Source: a virus
DNA: 26,139 nt
Reading direction: 5' to 3' (one strand)
IMG/VR virus record: IMGVR_UViG_3300021414_000011
Span: 1 to 26,139 of that record
Shown here: piece by piece, positions 15,844 through 26,139 of the stretch
How the letters are laid out: each line of letters starts with the position of its first letter
Numbering within the stretch: position 1 is the stretch's first letter
Notes under the pieces: model-generated
Database searches by the model: none
Told to the model about the DNA's origin: nothing
What the model saw: only the letters and a program-made list of their open reading frames with translations
Translations under genes and position numbers: made by a program

Positions 15844-15920
15844 TGGTTGCGGGGGCAGGATTTGAACCTGCGGCCTTCAGGTTATGAGCCTGACGAGCTA
15901 CCGAGCTGCTCCACCCCACG
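15844..15920 (-). tRNA. Initiator tRNA-fMet (CAT anticodon)
   Basis: A full 77-base cloverleaf on the minus strand with encoded CCA. Initiator marks are present: unpaired C1 x A72 at the acceptor end, A11-U24 in the D stem, and G30-C40 and G31-C39 next to the anticodon loop CTCATAA. Position 29-41 is A-U instead of G-C, a variant seen in some alphaproteobacteria. T3-G70 is a wobble pair. The D stem GAGC/GCTC and T stem GCAGG/CCTGC are intact. Phage genes lie on both sides, so this copy is phage-borne. It could boost late or leaderless initiation. Confidence 0.96.
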
Positions 15921-22157: not shown

Positions 22158-22264
22158 GCTGCCCTCACAGGGCGTGGGACGGTTTTGCGATCGAGGCCAA
22201 CGCCGCGCTCAATCGCGCGCTGTGCCATTGCATCGATCGATGATGGGGCAAGGATCGGTGTCAT
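22154..22264 (-). CDS. Very small hypothetical protein
   Basis: 36 residues from ATG 22264 with GGGAGG ten bases upstream. It overlaps its neighbours on both sides as ATGA. It begins [20 protein letters not shown] and ends in a basic VPRPVRAA. Coupling and ribosome site favour a real gene. Function unknown. Confidence 0.65.
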
Positions 22265-22971
22265 GCCGTCTCGACCTCCCGCATCGCCGCCAAGCATTTC
22301 TGGCAATGGTTCTTTCCCGATCCGCCGCAGACTTCTTCACCAGGGTGCTGGCAGTGAGGTCGCAGGAGAAGGATCGGATGGTCGGCCGGGCGGCTGGTAC
22401 TGAACGGCGACCCGGCCTGCTGTGTTGTGGCGTACTGGGGTTGAGCTACTTCATCGTCGCCTCCTTCGAGAGGGTGCTCGGACTTGGAAGTGGTGGGGAG
22501 GTCGGACGATTTACTCGCTGCCTCCCCTGCGCTTTCGGCGCTGGTAGCCACGGTTACCGAAGGTTGCCCCTCTATCGTGGCCTCAGCCGGGGAATGATCC
22601 TCGACCTGAACTGCGGTCCTCTCGGATACCGCCTCCGCCGCCTTACGCGGGGATTGCAGTGCCATTGCTGGCGATCTTGTACGCTTGGGAGCGACCGGCG
22701 CCGGAGCAGAGTCGGCCTCAAACTCAGGGAGCATGCCCAACGCGGCAAGGTACGTGTCGCGGACCATGTCTTCTTCGGTCCGCTCCTGGTCGTCCTTCTT
22801 CCGAAGGGCGATCACCTGCTTCATAATCTTCGTGTCGTAGCCCATGCCCTTGGCCTCGCCGTAGACATCCTTGATGTCGTCAGCGATCGTCTTCTTCTCT
22901 TCCTCGAGACGTTCGATCCGCTCAATGAAGGCGCGGAGCTGGTCGCGGGCTACGCCGTGTGCGTCGGTCAT
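22261..22971 (-). CDS. GapR/DUF2312-like domain fused to a Cys/His-rich tail
   Basis: 236 residues; start at ATG 22971 ([20 protein letters not shown]), overlapping the Cro-like gene as ATGA, with AGGAAGG upstream. Residues 9-80 are a full GapR/DUF2312 domain: [20 protein letters not shown] then [20 protein letters not shown]. GapR of Caulobacter binds overtwisted DNA and aids replication. Residues about 85-200 are a low-complexity Ser/Ala/Glu/Pro linker. The C-terminus has C207, H209, C215, H222, C223 and C226 ([12 protein letters not shown] then HCQKC), a likely zinc knuckle. GapR relatives normally end after about 80-90 residues, so the extension is unusual. Confidence 0.85.
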
Positions 22972-23207
22972 GCTGATATCGCCTTCCTGGAAGATGTGTG
23001 CCGGGTAGCAAGCCACTGCCAATCGACGCCCGCGATGCTCTTCCGAGCAGCGGCCGCAATCACGCCATTCCAGTGCCGAGGCGAAATGCTGTCTCGCAGC
23101 CTCATCTGGCGGGCGGCTTCGTATCCGCAGCCGACGTCAGCGGCGAAATCACCGATGGTGTCCCAGATGTCGATGAGGCTCGAAATGGAAGTGGGTGTCT
23201 TGCTCAT
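22968..23207 (-). CDS. Cro-like early regulator
   Basis: 79 residues from ATG 23207, read away from the repressor gene. [20 protein letters not shown] then [20 protein letters not shown] form a short HTH, and the rest is helical ([20 protein letters not shown]). It resembles small Cro-type proteins common in rhizobial prophages. There is no Shine-Dalgarno sequence, and the best promoter places the RNA start next to the ATG, so its mRNA may be leaderless. It would repress the repressor promoter and tune early genes. Confidence 0.82.
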
Positions 23208-23213
23208 GATCTG

Positions 23214-23242
23214 AATCGTACAAAAGGTACTGCGACAACGCA
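23214..23242 (-). promoter_or_regulatory. Candidate leftward early promoter (for cro)
   Basis: Minus-strand TTGCGT, 17 bases, TACGAT. The operator-like site at 23215-23233 covers the -10 and much of the spacer, as expected for repressed early promoters. RNA would start about one base before the cro ATG. An alternative -35 (TTGTCT) lies just upstream. Confidence 0.45.
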
Positions 23243-23268
23243 AGACAAAATCGTACACATTGCACGAT
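23215..23268. promoter_or_regulatory. Operator pair in the repressor/cro intergenic region (OR-like)
   Basis: Two sites share the core ATCGTACA-N3. The one at 23250-23268 (ATCGTACACATTGCACGAT) is a 19-base palindrome with seven of eight paired positions. The one at 23215-23233 has a good left half and a degenerate right half (GTAC conserved). A lone half site TGTACGAA at 23284-23291 overlaps the repressor ATG. Centres are 35 bases apart. The same core recurs at 25887-25931. Binding by the repressor and the Cro-like protein is inferred. Confidence 0.72.
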
Positions 23269-23290
23269 AAATTTGAGCGATAATGTACGA

Positions 23291-24022
23291 ATGGAATTGC
23301 CGAAGGACAGATTGAAGCAAGTGCGCGCTGCGGCTGGGTATGAAAGCCCGACCGATGCAGCGAACGCGTTCCCGCGTGACATCAACAAGAACACCCTCAT
23401 CAGCCACGAGAACGGCAACCGTCCGATCTCACGCAAGGCCGCCGAGAAATATGGCGAACTGTTTGGCGCCAAAGCGGGGTGGATTCTTTTCGGTGATGGA
23501 CCGGGAGAGGATACCGGGACAGCGTTGAGTGATGTGACGCTCAGCCGCGTTGGTATGACGGTTGGGCGCGTTGCTGGCGTGGTCGAGGCCGGCGCTTTCC
23601 GCGAGGTCGACGAGTTCGATCAGTCGGAGCCGATCGAGATCATGCTGCCGCGTGACGAGAAGTTTCCGAACGCTCGGCAACTGGTGTTCGATTGTGCTGG
23701 CGATAGCATGAACGACCTGCGGCCACGGCCGATCTTTCCCGGCGATCGTCTCGTCTGCCTGGCATACGAGGATATTGGCCATATTGAGCTTCGGTCGGGA
23801 ATGGTCGTCATCGTCCAGCGATCGCGCGACGGTGGCCACTTCCGAGAATGGTCGGTGAAACAGATCGAGGTGTTCCCCGATCGAGCGGAGTTTCACCCGC
23901 GGTCCACCAACCCAAAACATAAGCCGATAATTGTCGAGCACGACGATGAGGCGGACGAAGGCGTTACGGTCGAGGTGATCGCGCTTGTTCGTCGCGTCAT
24001 GAACGATTTGCCGGGGTTCTGA
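23291..24022 (+). CDS. CI-like repressor with S24/LexA-type self-cleavage domain
   Basis: 243 residues from ATG 23291; an in-frame TTG at 23273 is less likely. The N-terminal HTH (DRLKQVRAAAGYESPTDAAN, NKNTLISHENGNRPISRKAA) binds operators. The C-terminal S24 domain has LVFDCAGDSMNDLRPRPIFP with Ser139 as nucleophile, and WSVKQIEV with Lys190 as likely general base. AG pairs in GRVAGVVEAG (about 93-101) are candidate cleavage sites. DNA damage and RecA would thus trigger self-cleavage and induction. No ribosome binding site precedes the ATG, so translation may be leaderless as for lambda cI. It heads a four-gene operon. Confidence 0.93.
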   Translation: MELPKDRLKQVRAAAGYESPTDAANAFPRDINKNTLISHENGNRPISRKAAEKYGELFGAKAGWILFGDGPGEDTGTALSDVTLSRVGMTVGRVAGVVEAGAFREVDEFDQSEPIEIMLPRDEKFPNARQLVFDCAGDSMNDLRPRPIFPGDRLVCLAYEDIGHIELRSGMVVIVQRSRDGGHFREWSVKQIEVFPDRAEFHPRSTNPKHKPIIVEHDDEADEGVTVEVIALVRRVMNDLPGF

Positions 24023-24024
24023 CA

Positions 24025-24243
24025 ATGACACCTGATCGCTTCAACGAATGCCTGCGAGTGATACGTTGGACGCCCATCAATATCGCGTCGGCCCTGCAGT
24101 GTGAGCTATCATGGATTGAGGCTCTTGAAGGCGGCAACGAGGAAGTGCCTCCTGGGCTCGCGGCTTGGCTAGAAATACTGGCGCAGGTGCATGAAACAGC
24201 GCCTCCACCACCAACTTACCGAGGCAAGAGGGCGATACTGTGA
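24025..24243 (+). CDS. Small HTH protein in the repressor operon
   Basis: 72 residues from ATG 24025, two bases after the repressor stop. RFNECLRVIRWTPINIASAL then QCELSWIEALEGGNEEVPPG and LAAWLEILAQVHE resemble small rhizobial XRE-like HTH proteins, where the second helix normally reads as a DNA-recognition helix. Pro-rich end. Probably regulatory or an antitoxin-like companion to the following genes. Confidence 0.78.
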   Translation: MTPDRFNECLRVIRWTPINIASALQCELSWIEALEGGNEEVPPGLAAWLEILAQVHETAPPPPTYRGKRAIL

Positions 24244-24737
24244 ACGGATGGCGGCTGTTTACGTTCGTGTGGCTACTGTCGCTATCGATCGTGGTTCTTA
24301 CTTTATTCAAAGACTACCACTTCGTAGATCCGGCGATTTATGACAGAGTTGTCGATACGGGCTCAAAGGATGCTCTGGACGTGGCGGCCCAACTAGGCCG
24401 CTTCGATCTCGTTTCGATGATACTCGGCATCATCGCTCTGCTGATTGGGATCATGGCTGTATCCGGGTTTTGGATGATCAGGGGTGCCGCAGTAAAGGCC
24501 GCTGAGGATGCTGCAGTTAGCGCGAGCCGATCGGTTGCCGACAAGCAGGCTACAACGGTCGCGGAGTTGGTCGCGCAAGGCTATCTAGCAGAAAATGTTC
24601 CAAAGCTCGTCGACTCCATGCTAAAATCGATCTTAGCAACGGCTCCTACAGTCGCGCCTGAAACAGGCTTAACACCTGAGGAAGTGCAAGAGGTTACGGC
24701 TAGAGCACAAGAGATAGGCCCGAATCACAATGGATAG
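24240..24737 (+). CDS. Two-TM membrane protein in the rex-like position
   Basis: 165 residues from GTG 24240, overlapping the HTH gene as GTGA. It has TM1 at about 5-24 (LFTFVWLLSLSIVVLTLF), a periplasmic-like loop with DYHFVDPAIYDRVVDTGSKD, TM2 at about 57-80 (LVSMILGIIALLIGIMAV), and a cytoplasmic helical tail (KAAEDAAVSASRSVADKQ). It lies between the HTH gene and the ImmA-like protease gene and is co-transcribed with the repressor, so it is made in the lysogen. It could be an exclusion protein or a membrane sensor for the protease. Confidence 0.82.
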   Translation: MNGWRLFTFVWLLSLSIVVLTLFKDYHFVDPAIYDRVVDTGSKDALDVAAQLGRFDLVSMILGIIALLIGIMAVSGFWMIRGAAVKAAEDAAVSASRSVADKQATTVAELVAQGYLAENVPKLVDSMLKSILATAPTVAPETGLTPEEVQEVTARAQEIGPNHNG

Positions 24738-25203
24738 GAACGAGAAGAAAACTCTCCTTGGGACATACCTTGGCTTTCGATCCGCTCCCATCGACGTAAT
24801 TTCGCTCGCCAATCTTTTCGGAGTAAAGGTTTATAATGCAGCCTGGCCCGCGCACATTTCTGGGAAGATCCAGAAAGACCAAGTCAAAGGCGGGGCGAGC
24901 GGCTTTGCTATTTTTGTGAACAAGGACCATCCGGAGACACGGAAGCGGTTCACTATTGCGCATGAGCTGGCTCATTATATCCTGCATGAGGATCAGATCG
25001 GCGACGGCATATTCGATGATGCCTTGTACAGGAGCGGGCTGCCAGAAAGCAAAGAGTTCGAGGCAAACCAACTCGCAGCAAACATATTGATGCCTTGGCA
25101 TTTGCTTCGGCCAATGATGATGCATAAAACACCCGATCAACTGGCGAAGGACTTCAATGTCTCGAAGGAAGCGATGGACATACGCCTCGGCATCTTCGCG
25201 TAA
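24730..25203 (+). CDS. ImmA/IrrE-family zinc protease
   Basis: 157 residues from ATG 24730, overlapping the TM protein gene by eight bases. RKRFTIAHELAHYILHEDQI (71-90) carries HELAH at 78-82, and KEFEANQLAANILMPWHLLR supplies the third ligand Glu111: the full ImmA/IrrE signature. These proteases cleave mobile-element repressors (ICEBs1 ImmA cuts ImmR). Here it is in the same operon as a self-cleaving repressor, so its target may be that repressor, the small HTH protein, or another regulator. Confidence 0.92.
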   Translation: MDRNEKKTLLGTYLGFRSAPIDVISLANLFGVKVYNAAWPAHISGKIQKDQVKGGASGFAIFVNKDHPETRKRFTIAHELAHYILHEDQIGDGIFDDALYRSGLPESKEFEANQLAANILMPWHLLRPMMMHKTPDQLAKDFNVSKEAMDIRLGIFA

Positions 25204-25230
25204 CAGGCGTGAGTGATACCGGCATATCCT

Positions 25231-25254
25231 AAGCCCGCTTTAAGCGGGCATTTT
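25231..25254 (+). terminator. Terminator of the repressor operon
   Basis: GCCCGCTT-T-AAGCGGGC followed by ATTTT lies 30 bases after the protease stop. The stem has six to eight perfect pairs. It lies between convergent genes; the minus-strand version has a weaker tail (TTAGG), so leftward termination is possible but less good. Confidence 0.85.
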
Positions 25255-25261
25255 CCTGCCG

Positions 25262-25573
25262 TTAATTACGCATCAAAATCCGCGTCCCTTTCAGGTCGAA
25301 CGATGCACATGCATCCGCGACATCCTGAACGAACCACCTTGTTGGCGGATCGCACATGTAGCTTTCGCCGTTCGGGCCGGGATAGTTCATGACCGGCAGC
25401 ACATAAAATTCACCTTCATCACCAACCGGGGCGAATGGGCCAACCGTAAAGTCGTAGCCAGGGAACCGGCGCGACAGGTAATCTTCGAACCGCTCTTTTG
25501 CCGCCGTGACCGCGGACCGCTGCGCGTACGGCGGCACGATGATGAAACTCAAAACTTCCCGCTCAATAGCCAT
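25262..25573 (-). CDS. Hypothetical protein, leftward in the immunity region
   Basis: 103 residues; start ATG 25573 chosen because GGAGG lies nine bases upstream (an upstream in-frame start extends into the neighbour). It begins MAIEREVLSFIIVPPYAQRS and has RFEDYLSRRFPGYDFTVGPF and EFYVLPVMNYPGPNGESYMC, a compact alpha/beta fold. Convergent with the protease gene. Function not recognised. Confidence 0.75.
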   Translation of the reverse strand: MAIEREVLSFIIVPPYAQRSAVTAAKERFEDYLSRRFPGYDFTVGPFAPVGDEGEFYVLPVMNYPGPNGESYMCDPPTRWFVQDVADACASFDLKGTRILMRN

Positions 25574-25796
25574 TGGATACACCTCCATCGATCCCGACAA
25601 GCCGGCCGATCACGCTTCCGCATGGCTGGCACCTGAATGGGATATTTTCCAGATAAACGCTTTCGGTCAGCTCATCCGCATCACGCGGGATTCCCTCACC
25701 TACCGGCATGGCGATAAACTTCTGACTGTGCCGTAAGCAGTTCTCGCACCGGATTTGGAGCGTAAACTCTGCTGATACGTGTAGTGCGGCCAACAT
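25563..25796 (-). CDS. Small zinc-ribbon protein
   Basis: 77 residues from ATG 25796, with AAGGAG six bases upstream. Cys pairs RCENC (17/20) and RCQPCG (56/59) form a two-CxxC zinc ribbon, 35 residues apart. It overlaps the next gene by 11 bases, so they form a two-gene operon. It lies next to the distal operators and may be controlled by them. Function unknown; nucleic-acid or protein binding is possible. Confidence 0.78.
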   Translation of the reverse strand: MLAALHVSAEFTLQIRCENCLRHSQKFIAMPVGEGIPRDADELTESVYLENIPFRCQPCGSVIGRLVGIDGGVSNGY

Positions 25797-25886
25797 TTCG
25801 TTCTCCTTCTGTTCTCATGAAATCAGAACCGCGATGGAGAGTCGAATCGATTTTTCGGGTTTCGCTAATTTTCAAAGATTCTCAGA

Positions 25887-25931
25887 ATCGTACAAAATGT
25901 ACTTGCACAGGCATCGTACATAAAGTACGTT
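25887..25931. promoter_or_regulatory. Distal operator pair (OL-like)
   Basis: Site 25887-25905 reads ATCGTACAAAATGTACTTG with a perfect GTACA-AAA-TGTAC core. Site 25913-25931 reads ATCGTACATAAAGTACGTT. Centres are 26 bases apart. Both match the core of the sites beside the repressor gene, about 2.65 kb away. They cover the rightward promoter candidate below and are near the leftward zinc-ribbon gene. Confidence 0.75.
25903..25931 (+). promoter_or_regulatory. Candidate rightward early promoter
   Basis: TTGCAC (25903-25908), 17 bases, TACGTT (25926-25931), on the plus strand. The -35 touches the end of one operator, and the other covers spacer and -10. RNA would start near 25938, 50 bases before ATG 25988. 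A weak divergent TTGTAC-17-AAAATT for the leftward genes overlaps the first operator. Confidence 0.5.
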
Positions 25932-25987
25932 TATCTCATCGAAGCCGCCCAAGAAAAGCGGGTTGGCGCCAATGATGAGACAAAGCC

Positions 25988-26139
25988 ATGCACACCTCAG
26001 CAGACATCACAGCCACCGCACTGAGAGAGAACCTCAAGACGGTTGACGCGAAGATCTTCCGGGTTCGTGCGCGTACCGCTGCCGGCCTCTGCTCTCCGAA
26101 TGCTGCTGCGTCCTACCTCGTCGCGCTCCGCGCCTGCCA
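25988..26139 (+). CDS. Rightward early gene, 3' end off window
   Basis: Open from ATG 25988 to the edge, 50 residues visible: MHTSADITATALRENLKTVD then AKIFRVRARTAAGLCSPNAA. The ribosome site is weak (GAGA). It is the first gene behind the rightward promoter candidate, the position of lambda N or other early control/recombination genes. Nothing recognisable yet. Confidence 0.55.
   Translation, partial: MHTSADITATALRENLKTVDAKIFRVRARTAAGLCSPNAAASYLVALRAC

Follow-up and report, generated by a model that had tools for sequence, protein, structure and literature searches.

The 26,139-base window analysed here is the complete IMG/VR record IMGVR_UViG_3300021414_000011, probably a fragment of a temperate phage, and its closest annotated relatives are the Rhizobium phages RHph_N28_2 and RHph_TM3_3_3. 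Sequence comparison, on which all results here are based, makes it very probable that the window contains a temperate rhizobial phage immunity region with one SOS-cleavable CI/LexA-type repressor, two operator clusters, and a modular slot for cargo genes.

Four related sites form two pairs, at positions 23215-23268 and 25887-25931, and occur nowhere else in the window. The predicted operators are O1 (ATCGTACAAAAGGTACTGC, 23215-23233) and the nearly palindromic O2 (ATCGTACACATTGCACGAT, 23250-23268) in the OR cluster, and OLa (ATCGTACAAAATGTACTTG, 25887-25905) and OLb (ATCGTACATAAAGTACGTT, 25913-25931) in the OL cluster, all given on the plus strand. An earlier sequence-only reading of this DNA had placed four sites at these coordinates, and they stand, though all are imperfect copies of the palindrome that it quoted, ATCGTACA-N3-TGTACGAT, with four mismatches at 23215, one at 23250, three at 25887, and two at 25913. 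All four sites have a perfect left half. The departures in the right halves are partly explained by promoter hexamers, which occupy the same bases. With up to three mismatches allowed, the window has three matches against 0.04 expected by chance. We trained a weight matrix on twelve relatives, leaving out the window and its two closest kin. Its top four scores in the window are exactly these sites (23.5-30.4 bits); the best further non-overlapping site reaches 3.7 bits, and none of 60 Markov-shuffled windows gave a score above 14.7 bits. A motif census covered 18 whole or large relative phage records (25-59 kb), where the motif is found about four to five times each, every copy within the two clusters. 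A whole-phage scan had been named beforehand as a refuting test of the sequence-only reading, and it revealed no scatter: within the phage, this motif is confined to the two ends of the repressor unit.

Relatives were gathered with the whole repressor as the query and then with its N-terminal domain alone. In the first scan, every relative sharing the N-terminal domain and having enough flanking DNA carries the motif pair at both ends. At least two sites lie upstream of the repressor in all 74 non-Bartonella loci that share this domain, and a second (OL) pair, 0.78-5.9 kb from the first, is present in 51 of them. In loci sharing only the repressor C-terminal domain, the motif was not found as a pair at these places; they have a different motif, the same one at both ends, for example of the types TATGCGATAATCGCACA, TGTACGATAA(N)CATACA, and GGATTTTAAATCC. 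Among 47 dereplicated phages, the mean OR-OL similarity is 15.2 within a phage and 8.8 across specificities, and the best of 10,000 permutations reached 11.6. Judged across these loci, the operator motif switches at both ends together with the repressor DNA-binding domain, which is the pattern predicted by heteroimmunity. The comparison strongly supports the paired clusters as the OR and OL operators of one repressor that would bind at both. Bartonella prophages (L162-L178) have repressors of the same N-terminal family, and some of them show weak motif matches near the repressor.

Predicted outward early promoters overlap the operators at both ends. The leftward promoter PR has a −10 hexamer TACGAT (23215-23220, minus strand) inside O1, 7 nt before the ATG of a Cro-like gene, and a −35 hexamer TTGCGT (23238-23243, minus strand). 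The −10 reads TACGAT in 17 of 18 relatives and TACGTT in the other; the distance to the Cro-like ATG is 6-7 nt in most of them, so that the Cro-like mRNA is probably leaderless. A 17-nt spacer separates the TTGnnn box from the −10 in all 18, the −35 being TTGACA in L010 and TTGTCA in L009. The rightward promoter PL has a −35 hexamer TTGCAC (25903-25908, plus strand) whose TTG is also the 3' end of OLa, and its −10 TACGTT (25926-25931, plus strand), 17 nt further on, is the last six bases of OLb. Relatives mostly have TTGACN as the −35 and keep TTGnnn-N17-TACGTT. Because a strict sigma-70 consensus scan of positions 22900-26139 found no promoter, the assignment uses hexamer conservation among relatives in its place, and by this measure the promoter candidates that the sequence-only reading put at both clusters are likely to be correct. 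A −10-like GATAAT for the repressor promoter and the half-site TGTACGAA, a degenerate third site O3, abut the repressor ATG (23279-23290, plus strand) and are conserved in relatives. This position suggests that both divergent mRNAs, for the repressor and for the Cro-like protein, may be leaderless. O3 was rejected as a full operator in the window, where its matrix score is −5.7, and is counted as a half site only.

The repressor (23291-24022, plus strand) has an N-terminal helix-turn-helix (HTH)-type region and an S24/LexA-type C-terminal domain. It matches the transcriptional repressor family phrog_4 at 9.2e-13, and its Pfam Peptidase_S24 match is below the cut-off. An Ala100-Gly101 cleavage site and the residues Ser139 and Lys190, as expected for a self-cleaving CI/LexA-type repressor, are invariant across 20 repressor sequences. 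In a Foldseek search, the structure model, which is reliable only for the C-terminal domain and of low confidence in the N-terminal half, retrieved LexA and lambda repressor, RecA-bound forms included. These residues and fold matches make SOS cleavage the likely induction route, for which the M78 protease encoded in the same operon would not be needed.

The cargo slot is the interval between the repressor stop codon and a conserved convergent gene pair, lw2/lw1. It is empty in 24 relatives, with a length of 12-50 bp in most cases, and filled in 45. The slot of L007 holds BstA (1.6e-115), that of L014 a RelA/SpoT-type protein (PDC-S33, 2.5e-111), and those of L009 and L012 a PD-T4-6/mads_6-like kinase. 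Other contents are Schlafen AlbA_2, DUF3800, DUF1828, PIN, and PemK proteins and many genes without an assignment; slot genes were called as mechanical open reading frames, so errors are possible among the small ones and those on the minus strand. The window and L007 are 86% identical over 22769-24228 and 91% identical over 25308-26139, and between these flanks a transmembrane (TM) protein gene and the M78 gene are exchanged for BstA, while a small HTH gene stays beside the repressor in both. On this evidence the TM gene and the protease gene form a cassette open to exchange; together with the HTH gene they fill the slot and are not the immunity machinery.

Directly after the repressor lies the small HTH-like gene (24025-24243, plus strand; only Pfam HTH_31 at E=0.097), which also precedes BstA in L007 and stands alone in L023. 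Cargo gene 1 (24240-24737, plus strand) encodes one or two predicted TM helices and a soluble tail; its sub-threshold Pfam and NCBIfam matches (DUF2371, TadE-like) were not used. Cargo gene 2 (24730-25203, plus strand) encodes a CapP/ImmA-like M78 metallopeptidase with HELAH at residues 78-82 (Pfam PF06114, 4.7e-21), and its best PADLOC match is capP (1.5e-25). An AlphaFold model of the M78 protein from the single sequence had a predicted local distance difference test (pLDDT) score of 45 and was discarded. The gene content thus agrees with the sequence-only reading, which had listed an HTH protein, a two-TM protein, and an ImmA-like protease. The order repressor-HTH-TM-M78, the 2-nt gap or overlaps between genes, and a terminator-like hairpin after the last gene (25233-25254, plus strand) suggest that the four genes are co-transcribed in the lysogen as one transcript.

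The TM and M78 genes were not found in any fetched relative of the immunity region, IMG/VR phage contigs held no close relative of either, and the plasmids searched held no homologue of the TM protein. An M78 homologue (E < 1e-12) is present in 21 of 297 Rhizobiaceae-family genomes. Most of these 21 have a short protein with one to three TM helices directly upstream of M78, and distant homologues of cargo gene 1 occupy this position in Rhizobiaceae. Some of the pairs are followed by a Beta protein. Triads of TM, M78, and Beta proteins, resembling parts of gop-beta-cII and PD-Lambda-2, are found in Rhizobiaceae chromosomes and plasmids (L181, L192, L193, L199, and others). The likeliest reading of the TM and M78 genes, at slightly less than an even chance, is a prophage-encoded anti-phage or toxin-antitoxin-like cassette in which a CapP-type protease would control a membrane effector. 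More tentatively, and rather unlikely as it stands, the TM protein and CapP-like M78, optionally with the Beta protein, may be an undescribed anti-phage module, with a membrane effector checked or triggered by M78 and docked behind the repressor for lysogen-only expression.

We propose the following working of the region. The repressor bound at OR (O1, O2, and probably the half-site O3) would cover leftward PR, which would drive the Cro-like gene and GapR, as well as its own promoter. Bound at OL (OLa and OLb), it would cover rightward PL, the presumed driver of a recombination operon. Both outward operons would then be off in the lysogen and the repressor operon on, and a transcript that ends at the terminator would include HTH, TM, and M78, so that these genes would be expressed during lysogeny. 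The modular slot that holds the cargo would correspond to the place behind the repressor where other prophages have rexAB or bstA.

Several observations weigh against this reading as a whole. The OL pair was not seen in 23 of the 74 N-terminal-domain loci within the DNA at hand; three of these loci end within 1.3 kb, and most others are from Mesorhizobium. The OR-OL score of Sinorhizobium phage phi3LM21 (L208) is not significant and is not usable as added confirmation; this phage nonetheless shows short TGGA-N7-TCCA sites common to both ends. As for the slot, PADLOC matches were obtained for about 6 of 15 cargo genes and for 1 of 10 control early-operon genes, a comparison that makes defence enrichment no more than suggestive; the control match (PDC-M41B) and one cargo match, PDC-M41A in L031, are assigned to a single candidate system. 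The slot also houses Sel1, GNAT, and DUF3800 genes, for which no defence match was obtained. Several such occupants would be expected if the slot were a tolerated insertion site between convergent genes and its contents neutral passengers. We consider this fairly unlikely, since BstA, PDC-S33, and the PD-T4-6-like kinase share the slot and BstA homologues lie downstream of prophage repressors in many cases (PMC8585504). In phi3LM21, the candidate sites are TGGATTTTAAATCCA (OR) and TGGAAAATAAATCCA (OL), and the slot is empty.

How the clusters operate can also be explained in other ways. One possibility is that OR and OL depend entirely on a DNA loop formed by repressor oligomers, as in lambda, and two to three sites per end placed 2.65 kb apart, with a CI/LexA-like C-terminal domain in the repressor, fit such a loop. 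However, the OR-OL distance ranges from 0.78 to 5.9 kb among relatives, although a loop is compatible with a varying distance, and each promoter is already covered by the cluster at its own end, so that local repression could suffice; we judge an obligatory loop unlikely. Still less probable is binding of the Cro-like protein, or of a host factor, to the OL cluster in place of the repressor. The Cro-like protein likewise co-varies with the motif, having a homologue in 17 of 17 first-scan relatives with the repressor N-terminal domain and in none of L019-L080, where the C-terminal domain alone is shared. Yet the motif switches with the DNA-binding domain of the repressor, and lambda-type switches have repressor and Cro reading a common set of sites, so that Cro binding at OL would not be exclusive. 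The least probable alternative, which we regard as very improbable, makes the M78 protease part of the switch, cleaving the phage repressor to induce the prophage. In ICEBs1, ImmA acts on ImmR by cleavage, and the membership of the window protein in the M78 family and the position of its gene inside the repressor operon recall this system. In contrast to ImmR, the window repressor retains its own S24-type cleavage site and catalytic residues. M78 is missing from all fetched relatives with the same switch, and the closest relative has BstA in its place. For these reasons, ImmA-type induction was rejected as the main reading in favour of a repressor that is likely cleaved through the SOS response.

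The Cro-like protein (22968-23207, minus strand), whose NCBIfam match NF046037 (carph-isopro, E=0.0026) is below the cut-off, is the first gene product of the leftward early operon. Directly downstream of it, a gene at 22261-22971 (minus strand), found in most relatives, encodes a GapR/DUF2312 DNA-binding domain (Pfam, 3.7e-33) with a long variable tail. The rightward early operon starts at 25988-26139 (plus strand), where it is cut by the window end; annotated relatives have a RecT-like gene here. The genes lw2 and lw1 (25262-25796) also lie between the clusters and were absent from the sequence-only description. The product of lw2 (25262-25573, minus strand; 103 aa, function unassigned) marks the right border of the slot and has a homologue in 73 fetched loci. 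That of lw1 (25563-25796, minus strand; 77 aa), with a weak CXXC zinc-ribbon match (Pfam, E=0.036), has one in 90. The pair is kept even in relatives with an empty slot. Elsewhere in the phage fragment, there is a tRNA-Met (CAT) gene at 15844-15920 (minus strand).

The region shares its plan with lambda (OL-rexB-rexA-cI-OR-cro). In both, two operator clusters of a self-cleaving repressor bracket the repressor and accessory genes, early promoters point outward at both ends, a cro-like gene is divergent, and the accessory genes lie directly downstream of the repressor. The operator sequence and the repressor DNA-binding domain of the window differ from those of lambda, and a convergent gene pair lies inside its OL end. 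No window gene has a Rex family match in Pfam, PHROGs, NCBIfam, or PADLOC. The sequence-only reading had called the region an independent immunity system with a matching layout and no matching genes. Its paired operators of one repressor, promoters at both, and rex-like cargo position are supported. That the HTH, TM, and protease genes belong to an independent immunity system is not supported: the TM and protease genes are exchangeable and absent from fetched relatives with the same switch. Moreover, "no matching genes" was too strong, as the repressor has a CI/LexA-type self-cleaving domain.

The rhizobial temperate phage 16-3 likewise has annotated OL1/OL2 and OR1/OR2 operators flanking its repressor. 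Its C repressor shares about 15% identity with that of the window over the full length and 3% over the first 75 residues, its annotated operators are 12-14 bp and unlike the window sites, and its clusters are about 0.85 kb apart without a cargo slot. A 2025 survey of Sinorhizobium meliloti phiLM21-like prophages found neither lambda nor 16-3 operators in identical form, and the question was left unsettled there (PMC12429752). The slot resembles the BstA locus of prophage BTP1 and its relatives, where a defence gene lies directly downstream of the prophage repressor (PMC8585504). BstA homologues are often so placed, and the cI-n region of lambdoid phages is a diversity hotspot (PMC8585504); further prophage defence hotspots were described by Rousset et al. 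(PMC9122126). BstA was not found in the window, which has HTH-TM-M78 in its place, and among the relatives it occurs only in L007.

The M78 protein relates the cargo to several systems. In CapH/CapP of CBASS, whose capP is its best PADLOC match, CapP cleaves CapH upon activation by single-stranded DNA (PMC10904395). At 157 aa, the window M78 is shorter than the CapP chain 7t5t_A (291 aa), its HTH neighbour is not recognised as CapH, and no CBASS genes, CD-NTase/effector operon, or CapH were found among the window genes scanned. The M78 domain is also related to PD-Lambda-2_B, and some Rhizobiaceae TM-M78 pairs have a Beta protein as in PD-Lambda-2 and gop-beta-cII; the window has neither a Beta gene nor a PADLOC match for its TM protein. 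Unlike ICEBs1 ImmR-ImmA, the window combines S24-type residues in the repressor with an M78 gene that is not conserved in the fetched relatives.

Paired OL/OR in the rhizobial phage 16-3 and rexAB in this position in lambda were already known. As far as our searches reach, novelty lies in the operator classes and the way they co-switch, in the slot whose content varies across this rhizobial group, and in the pairing of TM with M78. For a large group of rhizobial phages, the comparison predicts operators and promoters as well as several heteroimmunity classes. In this group, which has its own operators and repressor, the rex position hosts defence genes, BstA included. New defence systems could be sought in this slot, where the TM-M78 pair is a concrete candidate.

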